Below, piece after piece: positions 45,180-62,899 of a DNA stretch of 64,000 nucleotides (the first letter of the stretch is position 1; each line of letters starts with the position of its first letter). The notes under the pieces were generated by a model that saw only the letters and a program-made list of their open reading frames with translations, had not been told where the DNA came from and ran no database searches. The stretch is from positions 124,001 through 188,000 of the forward strand of contig NZ_SWBO01000003.1 of NCBI RefSeq assembly GCF_005116475.1. Reading direction: 5' to 3'. A program made the position numbers and the translations under genes. This DNA is from Pedobacter cryotolerans (GTDB lineage Bacteria; Bacteroidota; Bacteroidia; Sphingobacteriales; Sphingobacteriaceae).

Positions 45180-45668
45180 TTACTTTAAAGTTTCCTTTAT
45201 CGCTCCGCAGGTTAACATTTGTTTTCCGAAATAGGGGTTTTTAATTGCTGTGTTATCAGAAAGCCAATAGCTTTTTTTCATTGGGCAGTAGTCATAATAG
45301 ACTGGCGCTTTGGTCAATTTTACAGCTTTAGCTAATTTGAAAAGGTTGGCAGAAAAATTAGCAAAGTGTTCTCTTTGATGTACGATTTCCTTTGTCTCTG
45401 AGATATGTTTAGCATCAAATTCAAGTTTATCCTGAAGCCCCATAAAAGAGGTCATTTCTTCCTTTGGCATTGATTTCATATCCATACTGCTCAATACTTT
45501 AGAAAATTCGCTTGCTTTTGATGCGGCTAAAGTTGCATCGGAATTTACCAACGCATTTTTGATGTCGTAGTAAGCCGTTAATAAAGATTGTGTTTGGCTG
45601 TTTTGGGCAAAAACAGGTTTGATCCATGCAGTTGCAACTAAGGCAACTACTAAAAATATTTTTTTCAT
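45180..45668 (-). CDS. DUF3347 protein, copy B
   Basis: 162 residues, Sec signal peptide (1-21, ending VFAQ), no lipobox, so soluble in the periplasm. DUF3347 (about 25-162) with HQREHFANFS, YYDYCPMKKSYWLS and FGKQMLTCG carrying the same His/Met/Cys pattern as copy A. First effector gene behind the hairpin at 45702-45721. The 157-bp gap after it (45023-45179) shows no gene and no clear promoter. Confidence 0.85.
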   Translation of the reverse strand: MKKIFLVVALVATAWIKPVFAQNSQTQSLLTAYYDIKNALVNSDATLAASKASEFSKVLSSMDMKSMPKEEMTSFMGLQDKLEFDAKHISETKEIVHQREHFANFSANLFKLAKAVKLTKAPVYYDYCPMKKSYWLSDNTAIKNPYFGKQMLTCGAIKETLK

Positions 45669-45777: not shown

Positions 45778-46212
45778 TTATATCTGAAAACTTTGAATGC
45801 TTATTCGAATATCTTCGTTAGGGGGTCGACACCTATGGTTTACGTAACCACTTTGATCTGGTGCGATACTGATTACTGTAACTAATAAAGTATAAGCGTA
45901 ATTGGCAAGCCCTACTACAGGTAAACTAACCAGTACTTTAGCACTTTCTGGGATGAGTTTACTTTGGATAGTCAGCTCATTTACCAGCTTTTTACAACAA
46001 GGATCTTCGTTTGAAGAATTCAGTCCTGGTATCGAGGTAATCTCATGGTCCTCTGCATGATTGTGCTCATGATCTTTGTGTTCATGAACAGCCGCTTTTG
46101 TATGGGAATGAGTATCATTATCATGATTCTCCTCCATTGCCAAAGCACAGCCAAAACCCACAACAGTATTGAGCAAAAATATAACTAACAGAAAGATAGC
46201 TTTACTTTTCAT
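45778..46212 (-). CDS. small secreted His/Cys-rich protein, HYC_CC_PP-like
   Basis: 144 residues: signal peptide (about 1-25, ending ALAM), a His-rich part (HDNDTHSHTK, HEHKDHEHNHAEDHE; about 30-58), a Cys pair (EDPCCKKLVNEL, about 71-82) and a C-terminal HRCRPPNEDIRI. The CC and PP positions and size resemble the HYC_CC_PP family represented by the gene at 54319, although the HYC motif itself is missing. First gene of the second copper operon. Probably a periplasmic metal-binding protein; true role unknown. Confidence 0.6.
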   Translation of the reverse strand: MKSKAIFLLVIFLLNTVVGFGCALAMEENHDNDTHSHTKAAVHEHKDHEHNHAEDHEITSIPGLNSSNEDPCCKKLVNELTIQSKLIPESAKVLVSLPVVGLANYAYTLLVTVISIAPDQSGYVNHRCRPPNEDIRISIQSFQI

Positions 46213-46219
46213 GACTATG

Positions 46220-46281
46220 CAAATCTATATAAAGATGCAAAATTAAATTTATATTATTCTACCTATTAGTTATATAATTAT
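46220..46281 (-). promoter_or_regulatory. promoter with tandem operator-like repeats, second copper operon
   Basis: On the minus strand two AATnATATAA copies (AATTATATAA and AATAATATAA) are spaced 21 nt apart within 46281-46248, followed after exactly 20 nt by the -7 box TAGATTTG (46227-46220), which lies 7 nt before the ATG. The same layout and 26 of 34 bases of the repeat block recur at 54726-54787. Confidence 0.6.
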
Positions 46282-46324: not shown

Positions 46325-46891
46325 TTATTTCAATGTTTCTTTTACTTCGCCACAAGTCATCATGCTTTCGCCGAAATAAGGGTTTCTGATTTCTTTTTGA
46401 TTACTTAACCAAGCCGCACCTTTATCATTTAGTGCCATAGGGCAGTATTCTACATAGATTTCGCCAGAGTTTAAGCCAGCGCTTTTTACTCTTTCTATAA
46501 AATCAGTACTCAAATCAGCATACAAAGTTCTTTGGGATTCAATATCTTTAGCTGCACCTATTTTAGCTGCTAATGTAGCTAATGAACCACCATTATTTAG
46601 TGCTTTTGAACCCAGTTCGATAGCATTAACTGCTACTTTTGCCTCGATCATATCACCATTTACAAGTGCATTGGTAAGATGTACATAATGTTGGTAAACT
46701 GCATTTAATTTATCGTCTTTTAAACTAACGCTTACAGCTGTTTTTTCCACAGGAGCCGCATCGTGACCTTCGCCTGCCGCATGGTTATGACCTGCATGTG
46801 CATCTTCAGCTACTGGTTTATCACTGTTTCCACAAGCTGCAAATAGCATTACTGCAACTAAAATCATTACAAAATTGGTTATTGTTTTCAT
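46325..46891 (-). CDS. DUF3347 lipoprotein, copy C
   Basis: 188 residues, lipobox FAAC (Cys about 20), His-rich linker (DAHAGHNHAAGEGHD, about 30-44), then DUF3347 with YVEYCPMALND and ESMMTCGEVKE. The His of the REHF motif in copies A and B is replaced here (ESQRTLY), so the metal site may differ. Last gene of the cus operon, 24 nt after the HMBD adaptor gene. Confidence 0.82.
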   Translation of the reverse strand: MKTITNFVMILVAVMLFAACGNSDKPVAEDAHAGHNHAAGEGHDAAPVEKTAVSVSLKDDKLNAVYQHYVHLTNALVNGDMIEAKVAVNAIELGSKALNNGGSLATLAAKIGAAKDIESQRTLYADLSTDFIERVKSAGLNSGEIYVEYCPMALNDKGAAWLSNQKEIRNPYFGESMMTCGEVKETLK

Positions 46892-46915: not shown

Positions 46916-48145
46916 TTATGATTTACTTAGTTTAAGCCCTTCAACAGGGTTTTTTCCTCTTTTAAGGATATACTCGCTATACAATAGATATGCTCCAGTT
47001 ACTACTACCTGATCTCCTTTTTTCAATCCTTCGGCAATCTCAACCTGATCATCGTTTTCTTGCCCAGTTTTTACAAGCTTGGCTTCAAAATTGTCTTTTC
47101 CGCTTTTAACCCAAACGTGCATTCCTTTTCCATCTCTTATTACAGCATCTACCGGCAAAGTCAATACATTAGTTTGACTTGCAGAAGGTAAAAAGACGTT
47201 GGCTTGTAAGCCTGGTTGCCATTGATTTGATGGATTAGGGATAGTCCCTCTAATTTGTGTAAGCTGTGAACCTGATTGTAAAGCTGGTGTAATAAAGCTA
47301 ATGATCATTTCTTGTGGCTTATCTTCCCAACCTGCAACCACCACCTTAACCTTTTGACCCTGTTTTATGTTTTTAGCCTCATTTGGATAAACATCCGCTT
47401 CGACCCATAACTGACCATAGCCTTCCAGTCTTATTATCGAGCCTCCTTCTTGCACATACTGCCCCTGCGTTACGGATAACTCTGCCACAATACCACTTTG
47501 CGGTGCATAAAATACAATAAATGGATCCTTTTTCTGTGTTTTTAACAATTGCTGAACCTGACTTTCAGATTGACCATATAACAACAATTTCTGTTTAGCC
47601 GCAGCAACTAGCTGACTCTCTATTTTATCGCCCTGAAATTGTTTCTGTTGTGCTACAGCCATTAAATACTCCTGTTGCAGGGTAGCCAATTGCTCAGAAT
47701 ACAATTGATACAAAGGCTGCCCTTTACTTACCTTAACTCCAGTTTCTCTTACATATAATCGCTCTATTCTACCTGCAATTCTACTAGAGATATAGCTACT
47801 TTGTTCAGGATCAACAGTTAGTCTTCCATTTAGCTGTTTACCACCAGAAAAGCTATTTTCACCTATGATTAGGGTAGTTATATTGGCTAATGCCTGGCGT
47901 TTCTCATCTACTTTCAGTGCTTTATCATTACTGTTTTTTTCAAAAGGCACTAAATCCATCCCACAAATGGGACAAGTACCCATTTCATTTTTAATTACCT
48001 GCGGGTGCATAGGACAAGTAAAAGTCTGCACCTTTTCTTTTGCAGCCCCCTCTACAGGTTTTTTCTCATTGCTACACGCTGCAATAAATACCGATGGAAG
48101 CACCGCCATTAAGGCAATTTTCTTTATAAATAATTTACGTTCCAT
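46916..48145 (-). CDS. RND efflux adaptor, CusB-type with HMBD module
   Basis: 409 residues from ATG 48145 (MERKLFIKK); the open frame to 48193 overlaps the preceding gene. Lipoprotein signal (FIAAC), an HMBD module (FTCPMHPQV to CPICGMDLVPF, about 40-66), then a membrane fusion protein: RIERLYVRETGVKVSKGQPLY (lipoyl half, given here in part), a coiled-coil hairpin (about 160-215), the second lipoyl half with FYAPQSGIVAEL and a beta-barrel domain. Delivers Cu to the CusA pump. Second of two tandem adaptors. Confidence 0.9.
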   Translation of the reverse strand: MERKLFIKKIALMAVLPSVFIAACSNEKKPVEGAAKEKVQTFTCPMHPQVIKNEMGTCPICGMDLVPFEKNSNDKALKVDEKRQALANITTLIIGENSFSGGKQLNGRLTVDPEQSSYISSRIAGRIERLYVRETGVKVSKGQPLYQLYSEQLATLQQEYLMAVAQQKQFQGDKIESQLVAAAKQKLLLYGQSESQVQQLLKTQKKDPFIVFYAPQSGIVAELSVTQGQYVQEGGSIIRLEGYGQLWVEADVYPNEAKNIKQGQKVKVVVAGWEDKPQEMIISFITPALQSGSQLTQIRGTIPNPSNQWQPGLQANVFLPSASQTNVLTLPVDAVIRDGKGMHVWVKSGKDNFEAKLVKTGQENDDQVEIAEGLKKGDQVVVTGAYLLYSEYILKRGKNPVEGLKLSKS

Positions 48146-48149
48146 AATT

Positions 48150-49361
48150 TTATTTTTTAATGAAGCTTTCACTATCAACCAGGTATGCTGCATTTTTACT
48201 TACCTCCCAATTGCTAATATCTTCTGTAATTTGTACCATCCCGGCTATGGTAACGCCTGTTTTTACCGCTTTTGGAATAACTACATTACCTTCTTTTTTA
48301 AAGAGCACTTTTTTGTCTCCTAATGATACTATTGCAGATTCTGGTAGCCACCATGAAGCAGCTAACAATACAGGTATTTTAGCAGTAAGAAGTTCCCCAA
48401 TCCTAAAATTCGATTTGTTGAGATAGGTTCTGGCAATAGTAAAGTTTTCGCCATTTTTAAAAACAGGCTGTATCATTCCAATAGTTGCGTTCTGAGCCGT
48501 GCTTTTATCGGCAGTTTTATAAAACATCAACTTATCGCCTTTTTTAATAAGCGATGCCAAGTCAGGTTTAAAGGAAAACTCTGCAAGCATACTACTGGCA
48601 TTATAAATCGTAAAAAGCGATTGTCCAGCACTTACATACTGTCCTTCTCGTAACATCACCGGAGAATTTACTGGAGTACTTGCCACTGGTGCAGCAGCTG
48701 TCGTAGATCCACCAGCCATACTACTCATTCCATCTCCACCAGAAGATGGGGCAGCAGCAGATGGGGCCACAATCTGGGCCGCAGCAGATTTTTCAAGAAT
48801 ATATCCATCTGCATTGCTATAAACAGGAATACGATAATTAACTTTTCTTGTTTTTAACAACTGATTAACTGTCGAATTATTCATCCCCAATAATATCAAC
48901 CGTTGTTTAGCTCGTTCTAGCATAGACTGATCTGTTTCAGAACGTTGCAAAAAAAGCAATTCCTGTTGAGCAGCAGCCAAATCTGGAGAATAAACTTCCA
49001 TAATTAACTGCCCTTTGCGAACGGGTTGGTAATTGTATTTAATCAACAAACGCTCTATTCTTCCACCAACCCTGCTTGCTACACTATGCTCATTACGTGT
49101 ATCGTAATTAATTATGCCATGCACTTCTTCCGTAAATATTCTTGTACCATACTCGGCTTTAATTACTGGCAATGTTGATACAACCTGTGCATTTGTAGGT
49201 TTAAGCAGGTGAGAAAGATTACTGTCTATTTTTACTGCGCCAAGATCATCATGGGCGTCGTTTTTAACAGCTTTATTCCTATTACAAGAACTGATTACCA
49301 TTATGCCAGCCATCATCAACAAAGCAAAGCTAAAGGGGTTAACGATATATTTCTTTCTCAT
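48150..49361 (-). CDS. RND efflux adaptor subunit (first of the cus operon)
   Basis: 403-residue lipoprotein (lipobox ISSC, Cys about 26). MFP layout: RIERLLIKYNYQPVRKGQLI (about 101-120), coiled-coil hairpin with QQELLFLQRSE, a Gly/Ser/Met/Ala-rich insertion (GGDGMSSMAGGSTTAAAP, about 208-225) that looks flexible, then IMPACT-type barrel parts. No HMBD. Overlaps the TolC gene by 23 nt and is followed by the second adaptor at 4 nt: tight translational coupling. Confidence 0.88.
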   Translation of the reverse strand: MRKKYIVNPFSFALLMMAGIMVISSCNRNKAVKNDAHDDLGAVKIDSNLSHLLKPTNAQVVSTLPVIKAEYGTRIFTEEVHGIINYDTRNEHSVASRVGGRIERLLIKYNYQPVRKGQLIMEVYSPDLAAAQQELLFLQRSETDQSMLERAKQRLILLGMNNSTVNQLLKTRKVNYRIPVYSNADGYILEKSAAAQIVAPSAAAPSSGGDGMSSMAGGSTTAAAPVASTPVNSPVMLREGQYVSAGQSLFTIYNASSMLAEFSFKPDLASLIKKGDKLMFYKTADKSTAQNATIGMIQPVFKNGENFTIARTYLNKSNFRIGELLTAKIPVLLAASWWLPESAIVSLGDKKVLFKKEGNVVIPKAVKTGVTIAGMVQITEDISNWEVSKNAAYLVDSESFIKK

Positions 49362-50589
49362 AATCTACAATCATTAAGTAAAGTTTCAGTTTTTCATCTA
49401 GCACATTCGTCTGCATCATGGTTAATGCTTCCCACGAATCGATTACTTCTGGTAATTCCATTTTATTCTCACGGTAGCTTAAAAAGTTAACATCTAGTGT
49501 TTTTTGTAAACTCGGAATAATTTTATCTTCCATTACCTTGATCCGCTTTTGCATAGACTGGATTTCGAATTGCATACCGTATAACATCCCCTGCGTTTCT
49601 TGAAGCATAGCCGCTTTCTCTTTTGCCATAGCCTGCACTTCATATTGCATTCCTTTTACTTCAGATTTATACATTTTTGAAGACCATGGCGCAATTGGGA
49701 TACTTACCATTCCCATAATGCTAAAAGCTTTAGGCATTGCTTTTGTTAAAGGAGACATGTGATCAAACCTTAGCTTAAAATCGGGCCTGCTTTGCTTTTT
49801 CATTGCTTCGATATTCAACTGCATAGATTGTATGCTATAATCCATTTTCTTAATATCGTTTCTAGCTAAGGCCAAACTACCTGTATCAATAGCTCTTGCA
49901 GCCACAAAAACTGGCTGATAGGTGGTATCAATAGCAAAATCTGCATTTCCCTGTTGGTTCATCAAACTATTTAGCCAAGCCCTACTTCTAGCTATATCAC
50001 CCTCCTGCATGATGATCATGTTTCGGTTCTCTTCCAGTTTGGCGGTAGTTTTATATACGCTACTTAATTTCGACTGGTTAAAAGGGTACCTGATCTCTTC
50101 GATCTTTTTCATGGTTTGCATAATCTTTTCATTCTGCGTCAATACCCTAATCTTTTGTTGCGCAACCAACCATCCAAAATACAATCGCTTTGCTTGCGCC
50201 TTGTATTCATTTAAGGTAACTCCCCGAGTTTCGTTTTCTACTTTACCCTTAGATTCGATATAGCGTTTGTTCGCATTTTGTTTAACCGGATTAGGAATAT
50301 CTTGCTCTAATTGTAGCATTAAAGAACCTTTATCACTTTCATCCATAATCATTTGACCAGGGTAGGGAGTCATAAACGTACCCACACCTACCATTGGAGC
50401 CATCCAAGCCGTTGCTGCTTTAGCCGTATGTTTGTAGCTTTCTGCTTTTAACCCATAAGATTGCAACAATAGATTATTCTTATCTATTCTTTGTAAAACC
50501 GTATCTAATGTGAGCACCTGTTTTTGTTGCGCTAATGAATAAAATGGCAATAGCAGTAGTATCAACTTTATTTTTTTAATGCTGTACAT
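49339..50589 (-). CDS. TolC-family outer-membrane efflux protein
   Basis: 416 residues from ATG 50589 (MYSIKKIKLI), signal peptide to about SLAQ. Long amphipathic helices and the repeat organisation of TolC/CusC are visible. It is strikingly rich in Met (for instance MAPMVGVGTFM and PGQMIMDESDKGSLM), as in copper channels. Starts inside the end of the CusA C-half gene (14-nt overlap). Outer-membrane channel of the Cu efflux complex. Confidence 0.85.
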   Translation of the reverse strand: MYSIKKIKLILLLLPFYSLAQQKQVLTLDTVLQRIDKNNLLLQSYGLKAESYKHTAKAATAWMAPMVGVGTFMTPYPGQMIMDESDKGSLMLQLEQDIPNPVKQNANKRYIESKGKVENETRGVTLNEYKAQAKRLYFGWLVAQQKIRVLTQNEKIMQTMKKIEEIRYPFNQSKLSSVYKTTAKLEENRNMIIMQEGDIARSRAWLNSLMNQQGNADFAIDTTYQPVFVAARAIDTGSLALARNDIKKMDYSIQSMQLNIEAMKKQSRPDFKLRFDHMSPLTKAMPKAFSIMGMVSIPIAPWSSKMYKSEVKGMQYEVQAMAKEKAAMLQETQGMLYGMQFEIQSMQKRIKVMEDKIIPSLQKTLDVNFLSYRENKMELPEVIDSWEALTMMQTNVLDEKLKLYLMIVDYEKEIYR

Positions 50590-52513
50590 CGTGAACCTCC
50601 AATTTTCCATATTTCCTCAATTCGTATTCTTTAGACATTAAAAAGATGAGCGGAGTAACTAGTAAGATGTGCGTAGAGGAAGTAAGTACTCCACCTATCA
50701 TGGGCAACACAATGGGTTGCATTACATCTACTCCAACTCCAGTAGCCCATAATACGGGCACCAAACCAAACAGCGACACACAAACCGTCATTAGTTTCGG
50801 CCTTAACCGTTTGGCAGCACCATGAATTACATATTCTCTCAAATCTTCTTTTGTGATGGTCTCACTTGAATTTCCTTTTAATTTAATCAGTTGCTGCATG
50901 GCATCATTCAGGTAAATGACCATCACAATCCCCGTTTCGACGGCAATACCGAATAATGCAATAAAACCTACGGCTACACCCACAGATAAGTTTACATCCC
51001 AGAAGTAGATCATATAAGCCCCGCCTATTAAAGCAAATGGAACCGTTATCAAGCTTAAAAAGGCTTCTCTTACCGAGTGGAAAGCGAAATACAAGGAGAA
51101 GAAAATTATGACCAAAACAACGGGAGCTATCCACATTAAGGTTTGCTTACCGCGGATAAGGTTTTCATATTGCCCGCTCCATTCCAAGAAATAACCTTCT
51201 GGAAGCACTCCTTTTTCTTTGTTTAGCTTTTCCATTGCGTCTTTAACTGTGCTGCCTAAATCCCGATCTCGCACATTAAACATCACCGCACCACGCAAAA
51301 TGGCGTTATCGGAATTGATCATCGGTGGCCCGTCTTCAAATTTCACATCGGCTACGGCTGACAGGGGAATTTCGCCAAAGGTGGTAGACTGAATAGGAAT
51401 ACGCTGAATACGCTCTACACTGTTTCTATATTCTTGTGCTAAACGCACGCTAATAGAAAAACGTTGTCTACCCTCAATGGTATTGCCAATGGTTGCGCCA
51501 CCTAATGCACTTTCTACCACTTGGTTTACATCATCAACGTTTAAACCATAACGTGCCAGCTCTTCTCTTTTTATATCGATAGCCATGTATTTTCCACCCG
51601 TAATTGGTTCTACAAATAAATCGCTAACACCAGGCGTGCCTTCTAATGCGGCTTTCACTTTTTCAGATACAGCAGCAATGGTATCTAAATTTTGTCCAAA
51701 AACCTTAATCCCAACATCGGTACGAATACCTGTAGCCAACATATTTATTCTGTTAATAATCGGCTGTGTCCAACCATTTACCACACCCGGAATTTGCAGT
51801 TTAGCATCTAGCTCGGTTACAATATCTTTTTTGGTGATGCCTTTACGCCAGTCACTTTTAGGTTTTAAAGTAATAATGGTCTCAATCATACTAATTGGTG
51901 AATTATCGGTGGCTGTATTAGCCCTGCCTGCCTTTCCCAAAACCTTATCAACCTCCGGCACCGATTTAATAATCTTGTCCTGTACCTGCAATATTCGCTT
52001 TGCTTCTGCATTAGATACGTCGGGCAAGGTAACTGGCATAAAAAGAATACTTTGCTCATCTAATGGTGGAATAAACTCTGTTCCTAGGTTTTTAAGCAAT
52101 GGAATGGTAATTAACAAAGCAATAATGTTAACGGCAATTGTCGTTTTTCGCCATTTTAAAACAGTCCTAATAATTGGCTCGTAAACCTTTTCTAATATTC
52201 TGTTTACAGGGTTTGCATGGTCTGGCTTAAATTTTCCCTTCATAAAAAAGGAAATCAGCACAGGTGCCAGTGTAATTACCAACAAAGCATCTACAATCAT
52301 GATAAATGTTTTGGTATATGCTAGTGGGTGGAACAGTTTACCTTCCTGTCCGGTTAACATAAATACGGGTAAAAAAGAGGTAATGATAATGACTGTTGCA
52401 AAGAACACCCCTCTTGAAACCTGTTTACTGGATTTGGTAATCACCGCAAGGCGATCTTCTTCACTTATCCAATCTGGAGATTTTTTAAATATATTTTTAA
52501 ACCACTTGATCAT
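50576..52513 (-). CDS. cusA: CusA-type RND permease, C-terminal half (split gene)
   Basis: 645 residues covering a CusA-type pump from the cytoplasmic loop after TM4 to the C-terminus. It begins MIKWFKNIFKKSPDW, then TM5 (VSRGVFFATVIIITSFLPVF) and on. Of the three Met that bind Cu in E. coli CusA, two are at matching places (INMLATGI and GPPMINSD) and the third is Leu (RYGLNV). It starts in an ATGA overlap with the stop of the N-half. All parts of the pump are present across the two genes. Confidence 0.88.
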   Translation of the reverse strand: MIKWFKNIFKKSPDWISEEDRLAVITKSSKQVSRGVFFATVIIITSFLPVFMLTGQEGKLFHPLAYTKTFIMIVDALLVITLAPVLISFFMKGKFKPDHANPVNRILEKVYEPIIRTVLKWRKTTIAVNIIALLITIPLLKNLGTEFIPPLDEQSILFMPVTLPDVSNAEAKRILQVQDKIIKSVPEVDKVLGKAGRANTATDNSPISMIETIITLKPKSDWRKGITKKDIVTELDAKLQIPGVVNGWTQPIINRINMLATGIRTDVGIKVFGQNLDTIAAVSEKVKAALEGTPGVSDLFVEPITGGKYMAIDIKREELARYGLNVDDVNQVVESALGGATIGNTIEGRQRFSISVRLAQEYRNSVERIQRIPIQSTTFGEIPLSAVADVKFEDGPPMINSDNAILRGAVMFNVRDRDLGSTVKDAMEKLNKEKGVLPEGYFLEWSGQYENLIRGKQTLMWIAPVVLVIIFFSLYFAFHSVREAFLSLITVPFALIGGAYMIYFWDVNLSVGVAVGFIALFGIAVETGIVMVIYLNDAMQQLIKLKGNSSETITKEDLREYVIHGAAKRLRPKLMTVCVSLFGLVPVLWATGVGVDVMQPIVLPMIGGVLTSSTHILLVTPLIFLMSKEYELRKYGKLEVHDVQH

Positions 52514-53808
52514 GATGTTGTTGTTTTATTTTGGTCCTTTTCCCATAACTCGTAGCGTTCTGTCAAATGCTTATATGCATTTTCGCTCATAATAATACCG
52601 TTATCTACAATTACACCTATAGCCAGTGCAATACCAGTTAGCGACATAATGTTAGATGAAATATCAAAAGCATTGAGCAGGATAAAGCTTGCCGCAATGG
52701 TAATTGGAATTTGTATGATAATACTTAATGCGCTGCGCCAATGAAATAGAAATACAAATACAATAAGCGATACCACAATCATCTCTTCTATTAATGTATT
52801 TTTAATCGAATCGACGGATTCTTTAATTAACTCGCCCCGATCATATACAATATCAAATTTCACGCCCTTAGGTAATCCTTTTGATACTTCTTTCATTTTT
52901 GCTTTTACTTTATCGATTACCTCTGCCGCATTTTCGCCGTAACGCATTACCACAATTCCGCCTGCACGTTCTCCCTTGCCATCCTGATCAAATATGCCCA
53001 ATCTAGTTTCTCCTGTCATTTGCACAGTAGCAATATCTGAGACCTTTATAGGCGTGCCATTTTGGTTCTTTACAGGGATATTTGAGATTTCTTCGAGGGA
53101 TTTGAGGTAACCAGAAGTTTTGATAATATAGCCCATATCGCTCATTTCGAACTTACGCCCCCCAGATTCGTTATTGTTACTTCTTACAGCAGCAATTACC
53201 TGAGGCACACTGAGTTTGTAATACAGTAGTTTATTAGGATCTATTGAAATTTGATATTGTTTTTGAAAACCACCAAATGAAGCGATCTCGCTCACTCCAG
53301 GAACATTTTGCAATGCAAATTTCACGTACCAATCTTGTATGGCACGTTGCTCACCCAAATCCATATCTGGGGCATCCAAGGTGTACCACAACACATGCCC
53401 TACACCTGTACCATCTGGCCCTAATTGTGGCGCAACACCTTCTGGTAAAGTTTTGGATATTGTACTAATTCGCTCCATTACACGCTCTCTGGCCCAGTAT
53501 ACATCTACATCATCCTCAAAGATTACGTAAATGAAACTCATCCCGAACATAGAGGAGCCCCTTACATATTTGATTTTGGGAATACCTTGCAAATTGGTAA
53601 CCAGTGGATAGGTAACCTGGTCTTCTATCAATTGTGGTGATCTACCCATCCATTCGGTAAATACAATTACCTGATTTTCTGAAAGGTCTGGAATTGCATC
53701 TATCGGGTTTTTTTGTACCGAGAATACTCCCCATATAAATAATCCGGCAGAAAGCACTAGCACAATAAACCGATTGCGCATAGACCATTCTATAATTTTA
53801 TGTACCAT
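52510..53808 (-). CDS. cusA: CusA-type RND permease, N-terminal half (split gene)
   Basis: 432 residues from ATG 53808 (MVHKIIEWSMRNRF); a TTG at 53823 adds five residues and is less likely. Contains TM1, the first periplasmic porter part (DAIPDLSENQVIVFTEW, in part; EDDVDVYWARERV) and TM2-TM4 ending IGVIVDNGIIMSENAYKHL, then a short tail and stop. In other heavy-metal pumps the chain continues here. The stop overlaps the next start as ATGA, so the halves are coupled; together they give about 1077 residues, the normal length. Confidence 0.88.
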   Translation of the reverse strand: MVHKIIEWSMRNRFIVLVLSAGLFIWGVFSVQKNPIDAIPDLSENQVIVFTEWMGRSPQLIEDQVTYPLVTNLQGIPKIKYVRGSSMFGMSFIYVIFEDDVDVYWARERVMERISTISKTLPEGVAPQLGPDGTGVGHVLWYTLDAPDMDLGEQRAIQDWYVKFALQNVPGVSEIASFGGFQKQYQISIDPNKLLYYKLSVPQVIAAVRSNNNESGGRKFEMSDMGYIIKTSGYLKSLEEISNIPVKNQNGTPIKVSDIATVQMTGETRLGIFDQDGKGERAGGIVVMRYGENAAEVIDKVKAKMKEVSKGLPKGVKFDIVYDRGELIKESVDSIKNTLIEEMIVVSLIVFVFLFHWRSALSIIIQIPITIAASFILLNAFDISSNIMSLTGIALAIGVIVDNGIIMSENAYKHLTERYELWEKDQNKTTTS

Positions 53809-53853
53809 CTTTATTTTTTTCAAATCGGCGCCTGATTACTCAGGCACCTGATG

Positions 53854-54222
53854 TTAATGTTTGTGATCTGATTCTGGCTGTTTTGCCGGCTGACTTGCTC
53901 TATCATATTTACAACAGCCTGGAAGTTTAGTATAAACTGCATCATTAGCTTTAAATTTTGGCGTATCATGTCCTACATCAGCGATCTTACGCTGTACATC
54001 ATCTAACTTAATTTTACTAGCATCATAATTGATGGTTAGCATTTTGGTTTTTGCACTCCACTCTGCAGTAGTAACGCCCTCTACTTTTACAGCTGCTTCT
54101 ATGCGTTTTTTACACATACCACAATTACCAGATACTTTAACACTGTCTGTTTTAGACTGCGCAAAAGTTGCACTGCCAAGGAAAGCCAACATGGCTACCA
54201 TAGAGAATCGTAATGATTTCAT
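53854..54222 (-). CDS. secreted HMA-domain copper-binding protein
   Basis: 122 residues with a signal peptide (to about TFAQ, residue 22) and one heavy-metal-associated domain (VKVSGNCGMCKKRIEAAV, about 28-45; CxxC motif GNCGMC). A His/Cys tail with PGCCKYD and SDHKH adds possible ligands. Periplasmic analogue of MerP/CopZ that could hand Cu(I) to the adaptor or pump. 45 nt before cusA; 42 nt behind a conserved hairpin. Confidence 0.9.
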   Translation of the reverse strand: MKSLRFSMVAMLAFLGSATFAQSKTDSVKVSGNCGMCKKRIEAAVKVEGVTTAEWSAKTKMLTINYDASKIKLDDVQRKIADVGHDTPKFKANDAVYTKLPGCCKYDRASQPAKQPESDHKH

Positions 54223-54318: not shown

Positions 54319-54717
54319 CTAAATTCTATAGGTACAGTTACGGATAAAGACGGGAACACTCAGCCACTCTGGTGGGGCATTACTGAAGACAGTATTTGTT
54401 TTCTGAGCTGATAAAGCAATCTGATAGGTGTTGCTTTTAAATGTGTGCTGGAAAACTGCTGGAAACTGTTTAAATTCGTAAACAAGCTGAGTCGACTTTT
54501 TAGATTGGTCTATCTTCGCCTGTTTATAATCGTTTTTGCAACATGAATTTTTCTCCGTTGCATTTTTAGTCATTCCGCAAAACTCACAATTGCCTTCATC
54601 TGACGTAGTCAAACCCCATTTAACAAGTTCTCCCATGCAATAATGAAAATGCACAGTTGCCCCGCTGGAAGTTCCCAGATAGAAGAAAGCAACAAAGGTC
54701 AGCAGTATTCTTTTCAT
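54319..54717 (-). CDS. HYC_CC_PP family small secreted protein
   Basis: 132 residues, signal peptide (1-18). Contains the three name-giving motifs of the family: HFHYCMGELVKWG (about 24-36), ENSCCKND region (CC about 58-59), and NAPPEW (about 114-119), with further Cys at NCEFCGM (about 43-49) and FIRNCTYRI. Function unknown; the family is confined to Bacteroidota and occurs with metal (mostly copper) efflux genes. Leader gene of the cus operon, starting 8 nt after a -7 box with tandem operator-like repeats. Confidence 0.78.
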   Translation of the reverse strand: MKRILLTFVAFFYLGTSSGATVHFHYCMGELVKWGLTTSDEGNCEFCGMTKNATEKNSCCKNDYKQAKIDQSKKSTQLVYEFKQFPAVFQHTFKSNTYQIALSAQKTNTVFSNAPPEWLSVPVFIRNCTYRI

Positions 54718-54725
54718 TATCTGGG

Positions 54726-54787
54726 CAAATATAAGCTACTTTAGTGATTTTTTGTTATATAATTCCACTTATTAATTATATCATTCC
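54726..54787 (-). promoter_or_regulatory. promoter with tandem operator-like repeats, cus operon
   Basis: On the minus strand two GGAATnATATAA copies spaced 21 nt apart occupy 54787-54754, then exactly 20 nt, then the -7 box TATATTTG (54733-54726), 8 nt before the ATG. The second copy covers the -33 position, as for an activator touching RNA polymerase. The remaining gap to the ATPase stop (54788-54978) shows no gene. Confidence 0.62.
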
Positions 54788-54978: not shown

Positions 54979-56991
54979 TTAAATTGTTTTCTTCTGGATC
55001 CTGATCGCATTCAATATTGCAAGGAATGCAACACCCACATCGGCAATCACCGCTTCCCATAGATTGGCTACTCCAAAAGCACCCAATGATAGCACTGCTA
55101 CCTTCACGGTCATAGCTAGGATAATATTCTGCCAAACAATATTGCGTGTTAGTTTTCCAATCCTCAAGGCAGATACAATCTTCAAAATTTGGTCATTTTG
55201 AATCACGATATCAGCGGTTTCAATTGCGGCATCACTACCCAGTCCACCCATTGCAATTCCTGCATCAGCCAAGGCAATAACGGGAGCATCATTAACCCCA
55301 TCTCCCACAAATGCAATATGTCTTCCTTCTTTTATCAATGCTTCTACTTTTTCGACCTTACCTTCGGGTAACAGATCGCCAAATGCATTGTCGATACCTA
55401 ATTTTTTCGCCACGTAATCAACCACTGCCTGCTTATCTCCAGAAAACATAACGGTTTTTATATTCAGCTCATGCATCTGTTTGATGGCTTCAGCCGCATC
55501 TTCCTTAATTTCATCAGCGATGGTAATATAACCGGCGTATTTTTTATCTACTGCAATCACAACCATTGTGTCTACAATTTCTTCAATCTCTTTTGGGTAA
55601 TCAACTTTATATTTTTTTAACAGTTTTAGATTGCCGGCAAGCACATCTTTGCCATTTACTTTACCTATCAATCCATGGCCCGAAATTTCTTCCACCGCTG
55701 TTGCTTTTCCGCTATCAGCATCTTTTCCCGCAAATTCAATAATAGCCTGCCCGACTGGGTGAGTAGAATTTTTTTCCAGGATCGCCGCTAACTTGACCAG
55801 TTGTTTTTCAGTCAATCCAACAGGCACTACCTTTTGCACCTTAAATACACCTTTGGTAAGCGTACCTGTTTTGTCCATAACAATGGTGTCGATCTTTGTC
55901 ATTACGTCCAAGAAATTACCTCCCTTAAACAGAATTCCATTTTTTGAAGCAAGACCAATCCCACCAAAGTATCCCAATGGAATGGAAACCACCAGCGCAC
56001 AAGGGCAACTTATGACCAGGAAAACCAGGGCACGATATAGCCACTGGTTGAAAACATAATCAGCTACAAAAAAATAGGGAACCAAAGCTAATGCTAGGGC
56101 TAAGAAAAAAACAATAGGTGTATAAACTTTTGCAAATTTGGAGATAAATAATTGGGTCTGTGATTTGCGTGAGGATGCATCCTGAACCATTTCAAGTATC
56201 TTGCTCAACTTACTGTCCTTGAATAGCGCAGTTACCTTGATCTCTGAAACAGTGTTTAGATTGATCATTCCTGCTAGCACCGCTTCACCCTTATATTTAC
56301 TATCGGGACGGCTTTCACCCGTAAGAGCCGCAGTATTGAAAGAGCCCTTGTCAGAAATAAGTTCACCATCAAGCGCCACCTTTTCTCCAGCCTTTACCTG
56401 TATGGTTTCTTCCAGTTCAACTTTGGCAGAGGGAACAACCAGTGTTTTTCCATCCCTGATAACGGTAACCTCATCTGGTCGTATATCTAGCAATGCTTTG
56501 ATGCTTGCCGTTGCCCTATCTACCGCAGAATCCTGGAACCATTCTCCTATTGAATAGAATACCATTACTGCTACGCCCTCCGAATATTCACCGATATAGA
56601 AAGCGCCTAATGTGGCAACGCTCATCAGCACAAACTCATTGAATATGTCTCCGCGTATCGCCTTACGAAAGGCAAGTACAAGTACGTTCCAACCAGCCAA
56701 GAGATAGGCTACACCATTAACCGCTAAAGAAACCCATTTTGAAAGTTTGATGCCAAATCCATAGTCTGCAACCAGTACACATATTAATATGAAAAGGCCT
56801 ACCAGAAGACCTAAATGCGCTCGCCACCCGGCCTGTTCGGGCCCTGCAATCCCATGGTCATGTCCATCATCATCCCCGTGATCTTCTTCGGCATCATTAT
56901 GTATTGCTTTATCCCGTTGCGGTTTGGATTTAGCATTCTTTACCGGACTTTTTGCTTTACCTTTTTTATTGTTATCGCTATGTTTTTTCAT
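54979..56991 (-). CDS. P1B-type ATPase, Zn/Cd/Pb type
   Basis: 670 residues; exports divalent soft metals from the cytosol. There is no HMA domain; instead a Lys-rich start and an Asp/His cluster (HNDAEEDHGDDDGHDHG, about 31-47). Then six to eight membrane helices with SCPCALVVSIPLG (CPC motif), actuator AALTGESRP, DKTGTLTKG, THPVGQAI, GDGVNDAPVIALADAG, and a C-terminal helix IADVGVAFLAILNA with the Asp that marks the ZntA/CadA subgroup. Last gene of the Czc operon, 18 nt after the 58-residue gene. Confidence 0.93.
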   Translation of the reverse strand: MKKHSDNNKKGKAKSPVKNAKSKPQRDKAIHNDAEEDHGDDDGHDHGIAGPEQAGWRAHLGLLVGLFILICVLVADYGFGIKLSKWVSLAVNGVAYLLAGWNVLVLAFRKAIRGDIFNEFVLMSVATLGAFYIGEYSEGVAVMVFYSIGEWFQDSAVDRATASIKALLDIRPDEVTVIRDGKTLVVPSAKVELEETIQVKAGEKVALDGELISDKGSFNTAALTGESRPDSKYKGEAVLAGMINLNTVSEIKVTALFKDSKLSKILEMVQDASSRKSQTQLFISKFAKVYTPIVFFLALALALVPYFFVADYVFNQWLYRALVFLVISCPCALVVSIPLGYFGGIGLASKNGILFKGGNFLDVMTKIDTIVMDKTGTLTKGVFKVQKVVPVGLTEKQLVKLAAILEKNSTHPVGQAIIEFAGKDADSGKATAVEEISGHGLIGKVNGKDVLAGNLKLLKKYKVDYPKEIEEIVDTMVVIAVDKKYAGYITIADEIKEDAAEAIKQMHELNIKTVMFSGDKQAVVDYVAKKLGIDNAFGDLLPEGKVEKVEALIKEGRHIAFVGDGVNDAPVIALADAGIAMGGLGSDAAIETADIVIQNDQILKIVSALRIGKLTRNIVWQNIILAMTVKVAVLSLGAFGVANLWEAVIADVGVAFLAILNAIRIQKKTI

Positions 56992-58458: not shown

Positions 58459-61400
58459 TTAGTTTCCTTTTAGATACTGTAACTGAATAACTGATTGGTT
58501 AAGTTGGCTTAGTGCCTCGATGTAGGCAAGTTTGGTCTGAACGGCACCAGATATATGTTGTATATATTCCATATATCCTATTTCTCCCAGGTTGAAGGAT
58601 ACCTGCGCAATCCTCGATTGCTCGTCGGCCAACTTAAGGCCTGAGCTTCTGTAATAATCGACCAGTTTTCTGAAAGTGTTATAATGTTCCAGTTCCTGAT
58701 TATAGGCCAAGCTGATCTGTGACTGTGTATTTTCAAGATTGGACTTGGCAATCTCGATACCGATTTTCTCGGCATTTACCCTCGAACGGCCTGCACCATT
58801 AAAAATCGGGACAGCGACACCAAACTGGATTCCCGCTATGCGGGTGCCTGGCGAATATGTCCGTGTTATATTTGCAGGGTTAAAACCAGAAATAAGCAAT
58901 TGCTGATTATAGCCCAAGGTGAATTCGGGCAATGATTTCGATCTTTCTACGGCAAGCCTTGCATTTGCTACTTCAATGTTCTGCAGATCGACCCTTGCCT
59001 GAGGGTTTGTTGATGGATCGATTGCAATCGTAACTGGTAGGGAAGCGATAAGATTGTCTTCTCCCACTGTCAAAGTTCCAACCATATTCAACAGCTGCCT
59101 AAGGGTATATTCGCTATTTTTTAGTTCTGCTTCAGCACTGGTTTTTAGTGCCTGAACTTCCTGGAACTTAGTTGTTGCGCTGAGCAGTTCAAGTTTTGAT
59201 GTTTCCCCCGCTTTTAGCCTAATTTCTGCCTTCTTTACAAAGTTGTTATAGATACTGTCCTGATACTTGAGCACACGCACCGTTTCCCTGTTCAAAAGAT
59301 AACTGTACCACGCATTTTTAACGTTTCTGGTTATTTCTGATTCTAAAGACCGATTGGCCCGTTCTGCCAAGATAGTCTGCTGGTTCAACAGCTTGCGGTT
59401 GTTCTTATAAAGGCCGGGCCATGCAAGATTCTGGCTTATCCCCAGGGAATTGTCCATGTTGCCACCGCTTGTAGGGTCTTGTGTTAACAATAGCTCCGTC
59501 TTTGGGATATCGATGGCAGATTTTTGGAGCGACCGTGACTGTTCTATCGTTAGCCGTGAAGTCTTTAATTGTATATTTTGTTTCAATGCCATTGAAATCG
59601 CACTGTCCAAGGTCAAAGGCTCATTCTTCTGGGCTTTTGAGGTAGTTGTAAAGAAGGCCGAAAGCCCAACGATAAGCAATATTGCCACCGGTTTTGGAAT
59701 GGAAATCTTCAAGCCGTCTTTCTTATGAAATAATAGGTATAAACAAGGAAGTACAAATAAAGTTAGCAGGGTTGCCGTGATCAGTCCGCCAATAACAACG
59801 GTTGCCAGTGGCTTCTGAACCTCGGCGCCAGCGCTTGAAGATAATGCCATTGGAAGAAAACCCAGTGAGGCAACAGCGGCAGTCATCAGTACAGGACGTA
59901 ATCTTGTTTTTGTTCCTTCCAGTACACGCTGGTAAATATCCGTTACTCCTTCATCTCTTAACTGATTGAAGTAGCCGATAAGAACTATCCCATTGAGAAC
60001 CGCAACACCGAACAGCGCGATAAACCCTACTCCAGCTGATATACTGAATGGCATTCCACGTAGCAACAATGCGGCTATGCCGCCAATGGATGCCAGGGGA
60101 ACCGCGGTAAAGATAAGCAGGCTGTCTTTTACAGACCTGAAAGTTACGTACAGTAATAACAGGATAAGAATTAGGGCAGCAGGTACGGCGATGGATAACC
60201 TGGTCTTTGCGGCCTGTAGGTTCTGGAACTGGCCACCGTAGGTGATGTAATATCCACTGGGCAATTTCAGTTCGTTGTCCAGTTTTTTCTGTATGTCTTG
60301 CACCGTGCTTTCTACATCTCTTCCCTTCACGTTGAATCCGACGTAGATTCTTCTGTTCCCGTCTTCCCGTGAAATTTGTGCCGGTGCATCCTTAAAGTCG
60401 ATTGATGCTACTTGGTTTAAGGGCACCTTATTGCCAGAGGGAAGGGGTATCAATAGGTTTTCGACACCTGAAATATTTTCACGGAGCTCCCTGTTCAATC
60501 TAATCACCACATCAAAACGTTTTTCACCTTCAAAAACTACACCAGCTACACTGCCCGCAAATGCGGTCTTTAGTATCATATTTACATCACCGATGTTAAG
60601 CCCATATTGGGCCATCTTGTCGCGGTTATAGGCAACCTGTATCTGCGGAAGACCATCTACCTTTTCTATGAAAGGCTCATTAACACCTTCAACCGGGGAT
60701 ATGATCTTGGCAATTTTATTTGCCTGTGCTGCCAGTACCTCAAGGTCATTGCCATAGATTTTAATGGCCACATCTTGCCTTATTCCAGTCATTAGTTCAT
60801 TGAAACGCATCTGCATGGGCTGGGTGATCTCGACATTCAGTCCTGGGATTATGGATAGTTCTTCTTCCATTTTCTCCATCATTTCCTCCCTTGAGCTGGC
60901 AGATGTCCACTGCTCTTTAGGTTTCATCGAAAGCATCATATCGCCCCTTTCCATTGGCATCGGGTCGGTTGGGATTTCCGAGCTGCCGATACGGGTAACC
61001 GCCTGTTTGACTTCTGGGAATTTGTTCTTTAGCAGTTTCTCGGCTTTTCCGAATGCGCTTACCACCTCGGTAAGTGATGTTCCCTGTGCCATTGAAATCT
61101 CAACGGTCAGATCGCCCTCTTCCAATGTTGGGATAAATTCACCACCCATGTTCGAGAATGCCCATAAAGAGATTGCAAACAACACAACTACCACCGCAAC
61201 CACAGATTTTTTGACCTTTAAAAGCCTGATCAATGCTCTTTGATATGCCCTTTGCAGATATTCGATCAACTTGTCCGAGAAGTTGTGTTTGTGCGTGGTG
61301 TTTTTGGACAGGAATAGTGCGCTCGCCATAGGGACATAGGTAAGCGATAATATGAATGCCCCAATTATTGCGAACACTACCGTCTGCGCCATGGGCTTGA

Positions 61401-62826
61401 ACATTTTTCCTTCAATTCCAACTAAGGCTAACAAAGGAAGATATACGATGAGGATAATGATCTCGCCAAAGGCCGCACTTTTCCTGATCTTTGATGATGC
61501 TTCAAAAACGGCCTCATCCATCTGCCTGCGATCAAGTCTTTTTACACCTGGAAAAAGGTTGTTTTCCGTTAGCCGGAAAATAATCGCCTCGACGATAATT
61601 ACAGCACCGTCCACAATGAGCCCAAAATCTATTGCGCCCAAGCTCATCAGGTTTCCCGAGACATTGAATAACTTCATCATGGAAAAGGCAAAAAGCATCG
61701 CAAGGGGAATAACCGATGCCACTACAAGTCCTGCGCGCCAGTTTCCCAATAATAGAACGAGTACCAACACCACAATAAGCGCACCTTCCAACAGGTTCTG
61801 CTTAACCGTTCCGATTGCACGGCCTACAAGCTCGGTTCGGTCGATAAACGGTTCGATCACTACTCCTTCTGGCAATGATTTTTGTACTTGGGTCATTCGT
61901 TCCTTTACGTTTTCGATAACCTCGCTGAAGTTTTCGCCCTTAAGCATTAAGGTTACACCTGCCACGACTTCGCCCTCGCCATTGCGGGTAACTGCTCCGT
62001 ACCTTGTTGCGCTTCCAAACTGTACCGTAGCAACGTCCCGGATCAGAATTGGCGTACCTCCAACATTTTTGACAACGATTTTTCGGATGTCTTCAAGGTT
62101 TTGGACCTGCCCAAGCCCTCTGATGAAATAGGCATTTTTTTGCTGTTCGATATACGAGCCGCCCGTGTTCTCATTGTTCTTTTCAAGGGATTCGTAGATT
62201 TCTGGAATGGTGATCCCCAGGGAATTAAGCTTATCGTTGTCGAGTGCGATTTCATATTGCTTTACAAATCCGCCCCAGCCGCTAACCTCTGCCACACCAA
62301 CTGTTCCGGCAAGCTGTGTCCTTACCAGCCAATCCTGCAAAGTCCTGAGGTCAGTAGCAGAGTATTTATCTTCATAGCCTTTTTTTGTGTGGATCACATA
62401 CTGGTATATTTCCCCAAGGCCTGTGGTAATCGGGGCGAGCATTGGCTCTCCCAATCCCGATGGGATAGAATTTTCGGCTTCCTTGAGCTGCGCATTTACC
62501 TGCGATCTTGCCCAATAGATGTCTATATCATCTTTAAAGACGATTGTAATTACTGATATGCCAGAACGGGATATGGAACGTTTTTCTATGATCCCTGAAA
62601 TGTTTGCCATTGAAAGTTCAATGGGAGCTGTAATGAACTGCTCAACTTCCTGGGCACCAAGGCTGGGTGCTTGGGTAATAATTTGAACCTGGTTATTTGT
62701 AATATCGGGCTGGGCGTCTATCGGCAAATGATAGGCAGAATAAATACCTAGCAGAACCAATGCGAGTGTTGCCAACCCAATGGTTATTTTGTTCTTGATG
62801 GAGAACGAGATTATTTTTTCAAACAT
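58459..62826 (-). CDS. czcA: CzcA-type RND pump fused to a TolC/CzcC-type channel
   Basis: 1455 residues from ATG 62826 (MFEKIISFSIKNK). Residues about 1-1030 are a complete heavy-metal RND permease (YHLPIDAQPDITNNQVQI, in part; VIVEAI and GVAVLNGIVLIGYF membrane signatures). The Met ligands of CusA are absent (APAQISRED, LMTGIRQDV), so divalent metals are likely. After a Lys-rich joint comes a hydrophobic segment ending TTTSKAQ (about 1045-1062), like an internal signal peptide, then a TolC domain to the end (LTLDSAISMALKQN, LAWPGLYK, YTLRQLLNMV). Bacteroidota have such fusions; how the two parts reach two membranes is the open point. Confidence 0.92.
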   Translation of the reverse strand: MFEKIISFSIKNKITIGLATLALVLLGIYSAYHLPIDAQPDITNNQVQIITQAPSLGAQEVEQFITAPIELSMANISGIIEKRSISRSGISVITIVFKDDIDIYWARSQVNAQLKEAENSIPSGLGEPMLAPITTGLGEIYQYVIHTKKGYEDKYSATDLRTLQDWLVRTQLAGTVGVAEVSGWGGFVKQYEIALDNDKLNSLGITIPEIYESLEKNNENTGGSYIEQQKNAYFIRGLGQVQNLEDIRKIVVKNVGGTPILIRDVATVQFGSATRYGAVTRNGEGEVVAGVTLMLKGENFSEVIENVKERMTQVQKSLPEGVVIEPFIDRTELVGRAIGTVKQNLLEGALIVVLVLVLLLGNWRAGLVVASVIPLAMLFAFSMMKLFNVSGNLMSLGAIDFGLIVDGAVIIVEAIIFRLTENNLFPGVKRLDRRQMDEAVFEASSKIRKSAAFGEIIILIVYLPLLALVGIEGKMFKPMAQTVVFAIIGAFILSLTYVPMASALFLSKNTTHKHNFSDKLIEYLQRAYQRALIRLLKVKKSVVAVVVVLFAISLWAFSNMGGEFIPTLEEGDLTVEISMAQGTSLTEVVSAFGKAEKLLKNKFPEVKQAVTRIGSSEIPTDPMPMERGDMMLSMKPKEQWTSASSREEMMEKMEEELSIIPGLNVEITQPMQMRFNELMTGIRQDVAIKIYGNDLEVLAAQANKIAKIISPVEGVNEPFIEKVDGLPQIQVAYNRDKMAQYGLNIGDVNMILKTAFAGSVAGVVFEGEKRFDVVIRLNRELRENISGVENLLIPLPSGNKVPLNQVASIDFKDAPAQISREDGNRRIYVGFNVKGRDVESTVQDIQKKLDNELKLPSGYYITYGGQFQNLQAAKTRLSIAVPAALILILLLLYVTFRSVKDSLLIFTAVPLASIGGIAALLLRGMPFSISAGVGFIALFGVAVLNGIVLIGYFNQLRDEGVTDIYQRVLEGTKTRLRPVLMTAAVASLGFLPMALSSSAGAEVQKPLATVVIGGLITATLLTLFVLPCLYLLFHKKDGLKISIPKPVAILLIVGLSAFFTTTSKAQKNEPLTLDSAISMALKQNIQLKTSRLTIEQSRSLQKSAIDIPKTELLLTQDPTSGGNMDNSLGISQNLAWPGLYKNNRKLLNQQTILAERANRSLESEITRNVKNAWYSYLLNRETVRVLKYQDSIYNNFVKKAEIRLKAGETSKLELLSATTKFQEVQALKTSAEAELKNSEYTLRQLLNMVGTLTVGEDNLIASLPVTIAIDPSTNPQARVDLQNIEVANARLAVERSKSLPEFTLGYNQQLLISGFNPANITRTYSPGTRIAGIQFGVAVPIFNGAGRSRVNAEKIGIEIAKSNLENTQSQISLAYNQELEHYNTFRKLVDYYRSSGLKLADEQSRIAQVSFNLGEIGYMEYIQHISGAVQTKLAYIEALSQLNQSVIQLQYLKGN

Positions 62827-62836
62827 GGAAATTTTA

Positions 62837-62899
62837 TTAATACGTAGAGATAACCTAACAGAAAATCTGGAAGGTAACAATTGGAATATTACGTATTAA
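62837..62899. promoter_or_regulatory. 10-bp inverted repeat spanning the DUF6660-czcA spacer
   Basis: ttaatacgta (62837-62846) and tacgtattaa (62890-62899) are perfect inverted copies 43 nt apart. One arm covers the stop codon of the leader gene, the other ends 10 nt before the czcA start, so pairing in the message could mask the ribosome-binding region. Confidence 0.5.

Follow-up and report, generated by a model that had tools for sequence, protein, structure and literature searches.

Two sets of copper genes lie on the minus strand of a 64,000-nt stretch of the Pedobacter cryotolerans genome (contig NZ_SWBO01000003.1, positions 124,001 to 188,000), the whole of which is called the window here. 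An original prediction, made from the DNA alone, held that the two operons share one promoter design with 21-nt direct repeats and that a single copper-responsive regulator, encoded outside the window, controls both. The question raised by this locus is which protein would read these repeats.

Promoter layout and genes of the two operons

Direct reading of the minus strand confirmed the paired motif ahead of both operons, with two copies of AATNATATAA per promoter, at a period of 21 nt, before the genes that begin at 54717 and 46212. Site A has the form AATGATATAA-N11-AATTATATAA (54785-54755, minus strand), with half-site 1 at 54776-54785 and half-site 2, 21 nt from it and kept in the relative G115, at 54755-54764. 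Site B has the form AATTATATAA-N11-AATAATATAA (46279-46249, minus strand), with half-sites at 46270-46279 and 46249-46258, the latter reading AATTATATAA in four aligned relatives. Pattern scans recovered the same half-sites, whose A+T content is 90-100%. At both sites, 21 nt separate half-site 2 from a TAnnTTTG box, TATATTTG at 54726-54733 for site A and TAGATTTG at 46220-46227 for site B, both also found in the composite scan. These boxes are of the Bacteroidota -7 type, for which PMC10620806 quotes the consensus TAnnTTTG. A recount agreed with the earlier figure of 26 identical positions between the two 34-nt blocks, each of which is indeed followed by 20 nt and then the box. By our own reading, both promoters lack a good -33 element where one would be expected. 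Provided that the box is centred on -7, the second half-site falls at about -43 to -34, because it ends 21-22 nt before the box, and the first lies two turns upstream.

Operon A begins with a gene for a HYC_CC_PP family protein (54319-54717; NF047658, 48.3 bits, cut-off 28), followed by those for an HMA domain protein (53854-54222; PF00403), a CusA-like RND pump, an outer membrane efflux protein (49339-50610; PF02321), a CusB/HlyD-type adaptor (48150-49361; PF16576) and a CusB-type adaptor with a heavy metal binding domain (46916-48193; PF16576 and PF19335). The last gene before site B encodes a DUF3347 protein (46325-46891; PF11827). The CusA-type pump is split into two overlapping reading frames on the minus strand, an N-terminal part at 52510-53823 (positions 1-417 of the PF00873 profile) and a C-terminal part at 50576-52513 (positions 417-1019). 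A two-frame pump also occurs in relatives (loci L145, L146, L151, L152, L156, L158, L159 and L160), which makes a sequencing error an unlikely source of the split. Operon B comprises genes for a small His-rich secreted-type protein (45778-46212), a DUF3347 protein (45180-45668; PF11827), a multicopper oxidase (41339-43966; TIGR01480, 377 bits, under the cut-off of 479) and a copper-exporting P-type ATPase (38766-41318; TIGR01511, 575.6 bits, cut-off 397). A HYC_CC_PP gene had been proposed behind site A, and this holds for the first gene of operon A. The first gene of operon B, which had been called HYC_CC_PP-like, gave no match to the NCBIfam HYC_CC_PP model at E 0.1 and resembles LpqS and CopL weakly, in both cases under the curated cut-offs. 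Elsewhere in the window, a minus-strand reading frame of 1473 aa (58459-62880) resembles, when its translation is read by eye, a fusion between a CzcA-type pump and an outer membrane efflux protein.

Occurrence of the site in this genome and its relatives

When the window was scanned for the pair with up to 3 mismatches, 5 matches were obtained against 0.94 expected; these are sites A and B, two opposite-strand matches where these sites lie and one shifted match that overlaps. Across the whole 4.25-Mb genome the exact pair occurs twice, at sites A and B, the next-best matches being six with 2 mismatches, and at up to 3 mismatches the count (82) is level with that of a reversed control (86). 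Once TAnnTTTG at 21 nt is added to the pair, a scan with up to 3 mismatches returns the two sites alone from the 4.25 Mb, both exact, and the control returns none. A third, weaker site (contig C1, 80215-80245), one of the six with 2 mismatches, has a box 22 nt away and precedes genes for an HMA-MauE protein and a DUF305 protein. Inspection by eye showed repeats resembling it ahead of the HMA-MauE gene in the genome G125 and in five named Pedobacter loci.

The sites are conserved before orthologous copper operons, as the original prediction would have it. In the close relative G115, in which protein identity over both operons is 81-98% by BLAST, both sites stand before the same genes, site B exact and site A with 1 mismatch. 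There, the gene for an AraC-type protein with an HMA-like N-terminus, here termed HMA-AraC, lies directly upstream of the orthologous operon and site A. The similarity between the two site A promoters begins at the first half-site, and farther upstream the sequences are dissimilar. The window has a Zn/Cd-type P-type ATPase gene upstream of operon A (54979-56991), and G115 has a CopA-type ATPase gene together with the HMA-AraC gene at the matching place (L145:3546-6770). Site B, behind three kinds of upstream sequence, has been retained in five aligned genomes, with 1 mismatch in one of them (G145).

Within the family, the pair was found with at most 1 mismatch in 67 of 151 genomes, and among the matches listed at this tolerance there are at least 95 pair sites, compared with 22 for the reversed pattern. 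Pair and box together, with up to 3 mismatches, have a match in 245 of 399 family genomes. In 30 of these composite loci, drawn from a longer list and unselected for gene content, BLAST identified a copper-type gene as the next gene in 21, which speaks against the pair standing chiefly before unrelated genes. With at most 1 mismatch the proportion is nine in ten, and the tenth locus has an HMA frame some 380 nt downstream, recognised by eye. Some composite sites with 2-3 mismatches precede genes that by eye are unrelated, such as those for a hydrolase-like protein or a membrane protein, so weak single matches are untrustworthy. In one genome (G150:C141:10829-10985), pair matches spaced at 21 nt point to a 21-nt unit in tandem array, which fits the pattern by its own period.

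An HMA-AraC protein as candidate regulator

An HTH_18 search of the genome for AraC-type proteins gave 21 matches, none of which lies inside the window; for this class of protein, the earlier statement that the window encodes no such regulator stands. Judged from its sequence, one of them, the 187-aa HMA-AraC protein encoded at C1:77812-78375, is very probably the missing regulator. Its gene is the sole match in this genome at E 1e-15 (G115 has two) and sits in a copper gene cluster, 1.8 kb from the weaker site at C1:80215-80245. The protein has the N-terminus MKLFIKNMVCDRCKMVV, with a CxxC at positions 10 and 13, and scores 62.1 bits against PF12833 (cut-off 33.6), which places it among proteins with an AraC/XylS helix-turn-helix. 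The AlphaFold2 model is confident and has two domains, with a mean pLDDT of 91 overall and block means of 92-95 for residues 1-60. Residues 1-63 have a predicted beta-alpha-beta-beta-alpha-beta fold matched by Cu(I) chaperones, Atx1 and CopZ among them; the structure matches (2xmv, 6ff2 and 4y2i) have Z scores of 7.6-7.9, which are middling, ACT domains reaching about 7 too. Residues 65-180, approximately, match the DNA-binding domains of AraC, MarA and Rns with Z scores of 11.9-13.6, and SoxS is also among the matches. An alignment profile of the protein finds AraC-type domains (best 1e-11), the tandem HMA domains of CopA (1p6t; E 2e-7 for the whole chain, with single stretches all above 0.01) and CopZ (6ff2; E 3e-4, with one stretch under 0.01). 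The single sequence gave no match to the Pfam HMA model PF00403 at E 0.1, and reached E 0.029 with the NCBIfam CopZ model, under its cut-off.

Residues K6, N7, M8, V9, C10, R12 and C13 are invariant in an alignment of HMA-AraC with 31 homologues (alignment A1; 32 of 41 proteins). The CxxC is present in 192 of 200 homologues, the other 8 having SxxC (L287, L293, L298, L313, L320, L327, L328 and L330); a repeat was found behind 2 of these 8 variant genes, both times with 3 mismatches, and the variant may sense a different signal. Pfam reports AraC-type helix-turn-helix domains alone (HTH_18 and HTH_AraC) and the N-terminus is HMA-like. A response regulator, an alternative raised earlier, finds no support, as Pfam shows no receiver domain in the protein, and by Pfam it also lacks the DNA-binding domains of the MerR/CueR, CsoR or CopY families. 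Homologues were found at E 1e-15 in 124 of 151 family genomes, in a search that scored up to 22 first-look candidates per genome and yielded at least 150 matches, 150 of which were listed. Among named genomes, at least 564 stretches were confirmed and the best 80 were used; the genera include Pedobacter, Flavobacterium, Chryseobacterium, Dysgonomonas, Prevotella, Niabella, Mariniphaga, Pontibacter and Rhodohalobacter, and six Pedobacter loci among the best have 61-68% identity to HMA-AraC.

An AraC-type gene does co-occur with the sites, both in its linkage to them and in their adjacency to its stop codon. For 14 of the 95 listed family sites with at most 1 mismatch, a listed HMA-AraC gene is found no more than 10 kb away, a lower bound, against about 0.46 expected if genomes of 4.5 Mb are assumed, and site and gene share the strand in all 14. 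The order HMA-AraC, site, CopA or HMA gene is frequent. Adjacency was assessed over 180 nt that span the HMA-AraC stop codon of the named loci and extend beyond it, 77 of the 80 regions being left after removal of near-duplicates. Half-sites of the form AATNNYRYAA occur at 21 nt in 44 of these 77. Dinucleotide shuffles give 1.4 and other periods 0-16, the count falling sharply at 20 and 22. As this form had been picked by eye from HMA-AraC loci and the window, the period test was rerun with the motif of the original prediction alone, which gave 22 of 77 loci at 21 nt and 0-1 at each of 22 other periods. A second set of family loci (74 of 80 regions after near-duplicate removal) gave 36 at 21 nt against 1-15 at other periods with AATNNYRYAA, and 12 against 0-2 with the original motif; this set is not fully blind, L255 being the same gene as the earlier L157 and the sites of L305 and L322 being already listed.

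A site with at most 2 mismatches is found right behind HMA-AraC in 97 of 193 distinct regions. TTTG follows the second half-site at 25 or 26 nt in 88 of these sites, one of which has a second TTTG at 30, and is absent between 20 and 30 nt in the other 9. The second letter of the box is A in 87 of the 88 and the first is T in just 37, the box behind adjacent sites being NAnnTTTG rather than TAnnTTTG. Other lineages have the half-sites AATCTTACAA and AATTCCACAA in an unchanged register. After 44 adjacent sites, with those near the region end admitted without a check for the box, the following reading frame is copper-type in 37 cases and of another kind in 4, none being found in 3. Equivalent stretches after the other genes at these loci contained a site and box together in 13 of 1118 cases, against 40 of 77 behind HMA-AraC; by our own reading, at least 10 of those 13 precede HMA-type genes or, once, the gene of a small Cys-rich protein. 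At locus L243, the repeat and box stand before a small Cys-rich reading frame (MTDFKNCIAACLACLIACEKC...) that by eye is like copper storage proteins.

Other counts need more care. A composite site is present in 73 of the 124 genomes with an HMA-AraC gene and in 5 of the 27 without one (p 2e-4; 151 genomes, seven of the 27 assigned by elimination), an association given little weight because the genomes that lack the gene are small, at 3.7 Mb or less. When 11 of these 27 were searched again by alignment, matches were obtained in 4, to open frames of 276-333 aa that are longer than HMA-AraC and were matched in their C-terminal part. A search out to 1.5 kb from each of the 30 closest HMA-AraC genes found the original motif, with up to 4 mismatches and a nearly complete box, at 8 of them, against 1 of 21 AraC loci of this genome. 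Sites are few at this distance because the gene lies inside an operon in this genus, and wider regions together with AATNNYRYAA resolved the matter. Against the proposed link stands the HMA-AraC operon of this genome itself, which has no good site in front (4 mismatches by our own count). Autoregulation through such a site has no support in this genus. About half of the genes have no adjacent site, for which their place within operons may be no more than a partial explanation.

Co-variation of protein and site, and competing readings

The variable residues of the protein were compared with the variable bases of the site in 59 distinct protein-site pairs (of 63, near-duplicates removed), which amounts to 1518 tests; the four half-sites of the window were kept out. 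The top five results all concern residue 157 or 160, which lie in a predicted helix (155-166) that, by comparison with AraC proteins, would be the recognition helix of the second helix-turn-helix. The two highest link residue 157 to base 6 and residue 160 to base 8. All 33 pairs with His at 157 have T at base 6 of half-site 2, compared with 7 of 26 for other residues (p 4.7e-10), and T at base 8 of half-site 1 occurs in 25 of 27 pairs in which residue 160 is not Asn and in 6 of 32 in which it is (p 7.8e-9). On a protein tree built without columns 150-170, the two residues have changed at least 11 and at least 12 times, respectively. A correlated-evolution fit, run on this quick and weakly supported tree, gave likelihood ratios of 33.1 for 157 with base 6 (p 1e-6) and 26.8 for 160 with base 8 (p 2e-5); four of six control pairs had p > 0.05 and two fell below (0.004 and 0.03), and a test on independent pairs had just 1-3 of them on supported branches, too few to count either way. 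In the second set (34 of 38 pairs after near-duplicate removal, those already used being excluded), H157 goes with T in 16 of 16 pairs and other residues in 7 of 18 (p 1.3e-4). There the link of 160 with base 8 is weak (p 0.026). Higher scores are reached there by residues 126 and 151, which is attributed to shared ancestry within one family. The HMA-AraC of the window genome has H157 and A160, from which T is predicted at bases 6 and 8, and all four half-sites of the window have T there.

Taken together, these data suggest, with a probability that we put at about 85%, that the 21-nt direct repeats are the operator of HMA-AraC acting as a copper-sensing activator of the AraC type, and they support the earlier view of one shared regulator for both operons. 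We hardly credit the repeats as AT-rich promoter sequence, a UP element or curved DNA with no dedicated regulator: the half-sites of the window are rich enough in A+T for it, yet the exact 21-nt period with its drop at 20 and 22 lies far above dinucleotide shuffles, AATCTTACAA and AATTCCACAA keep the register elsewhere, and the composite is unique to these two operons genome-wide. It is improbable, though less so, that the protein bound to the repeats is a response regulator or a different AraC protein, HMA-AraC being a mere neighbour. There are 20 further HTH_18 matches in the genome, the HMA-AraC operon is without a good site of its own, and a draft genome that is 92% complete (G032) has a site before CopA, with no HMA-AraC gene found in it. 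What stands against such a regulator is that the recognition helix of HMA-AraC co-varies with the half-site bases, that the site adjoins the HMA-AraC stop codon in many Bacteroidota, and that a single weak site was found at the 21 AraC-type loci of the genome, one of them being HMA-AraC itself.

A larger share of the doubt, amounting still to an unlikely outcome, concerns what HMA-AraC would do once it binds the repeats, as it could answer to a different thiophilic metal (silver or gold, for instance) or to thiol stress in place of copper, or be a repressor released by metal. HMA folds do bind other soft metals, GolB and MerP appear beside copper chaperones in the structure comparison, and SxxC replaces CxxC in a few homologues. 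The genes behind the sites are nevertheless mostly of copper type (21 of 30 and 37 of 44), and the HMA matches of the profile are mainly to CopA, copper-transporting ATPase 2 and CopZ; as for a repressor, the half-sites lie upstream of the -7 box and not over it, which suits an activator.

As an activator, HMA-AraC would place two subunits side by side on the half-sites, on one face of the helix, with the nearer subunit adjoining the -33 region. Cytoplasmic Cu(I) bound at the CxxC of the HMA domain would favour dimer formation or an active posture, RNA polymerase would be drawn to promoters without a good -33 element, and the efflux, oxidase and ATPase genes would be turned on. The protein would in this case be a class-II-like activator of the AraC type, responding to cytoplasmic Cu(I); we infer activation from the position of the half-sites, like that at AraC I1-I2, and from the want of a good -33 element, while the HMA domain and target genes suggest copper as the signal.

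AraC regulators are well known, as are HMA domains. In Escherichia coli, AraC occupies two direct-repeat half-sites with a 21-bp period at araI1-I2, the second beside the -35 region. HMA-AraC shares this repeat geometry and a matching DNA-binding domain (2k9s, Z 11.9), but it has an HMA-like sensor of about 63 residues where AraC has a sugar-binding domain, and its sites differ in half-site sequence and belong to -33/-7 promoters. With the HMA metallochaperones and the N-terminal domains of CopA (Atx1, CopZ, CopA), it shares the fold of residues 1-63 (Z 7-8), the CxxC and the profile matches to CopA and CopZ, although here the domain is joined to one that binds DNA. Bacterial copper regulators include CueR, of the MerR type, CsoR, CopY and CusR; these likewise control copper efflux and oxidase genes, whereas their DNA-binding domains are of other families, and none is known to be of the AraC type with an HMA sensor. 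A search of full-text literature, whose coverage excludes most subscription papers and preprints, returned no description of an HMA-AraC copper regulator or operator in Bacteroidota.

It seems likely, if somewhat less so than the reading of these two promoters, that HMA-AraC represents a copper-sensor class found across the Bacteroidota, built from a Cu(I)-chaperone domain joined to an AraC domain that reads 21-bp repeats in register with the -7 element, residues 157 and 160 serving as a code for bases 6 and 8. If this is true, copper control in many Bacteroidota would depend on a sensor architecture unlike those of CueR, CsoR, CopY and CusRS, with a recognisable operator, and a metallochaperone domain would be at work as the sensing part of an AraC-type switch. 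In Flavobacterium, Pedobacter, Prevotella and their relatives, it would then be possible to read copper regulons from the sequence.
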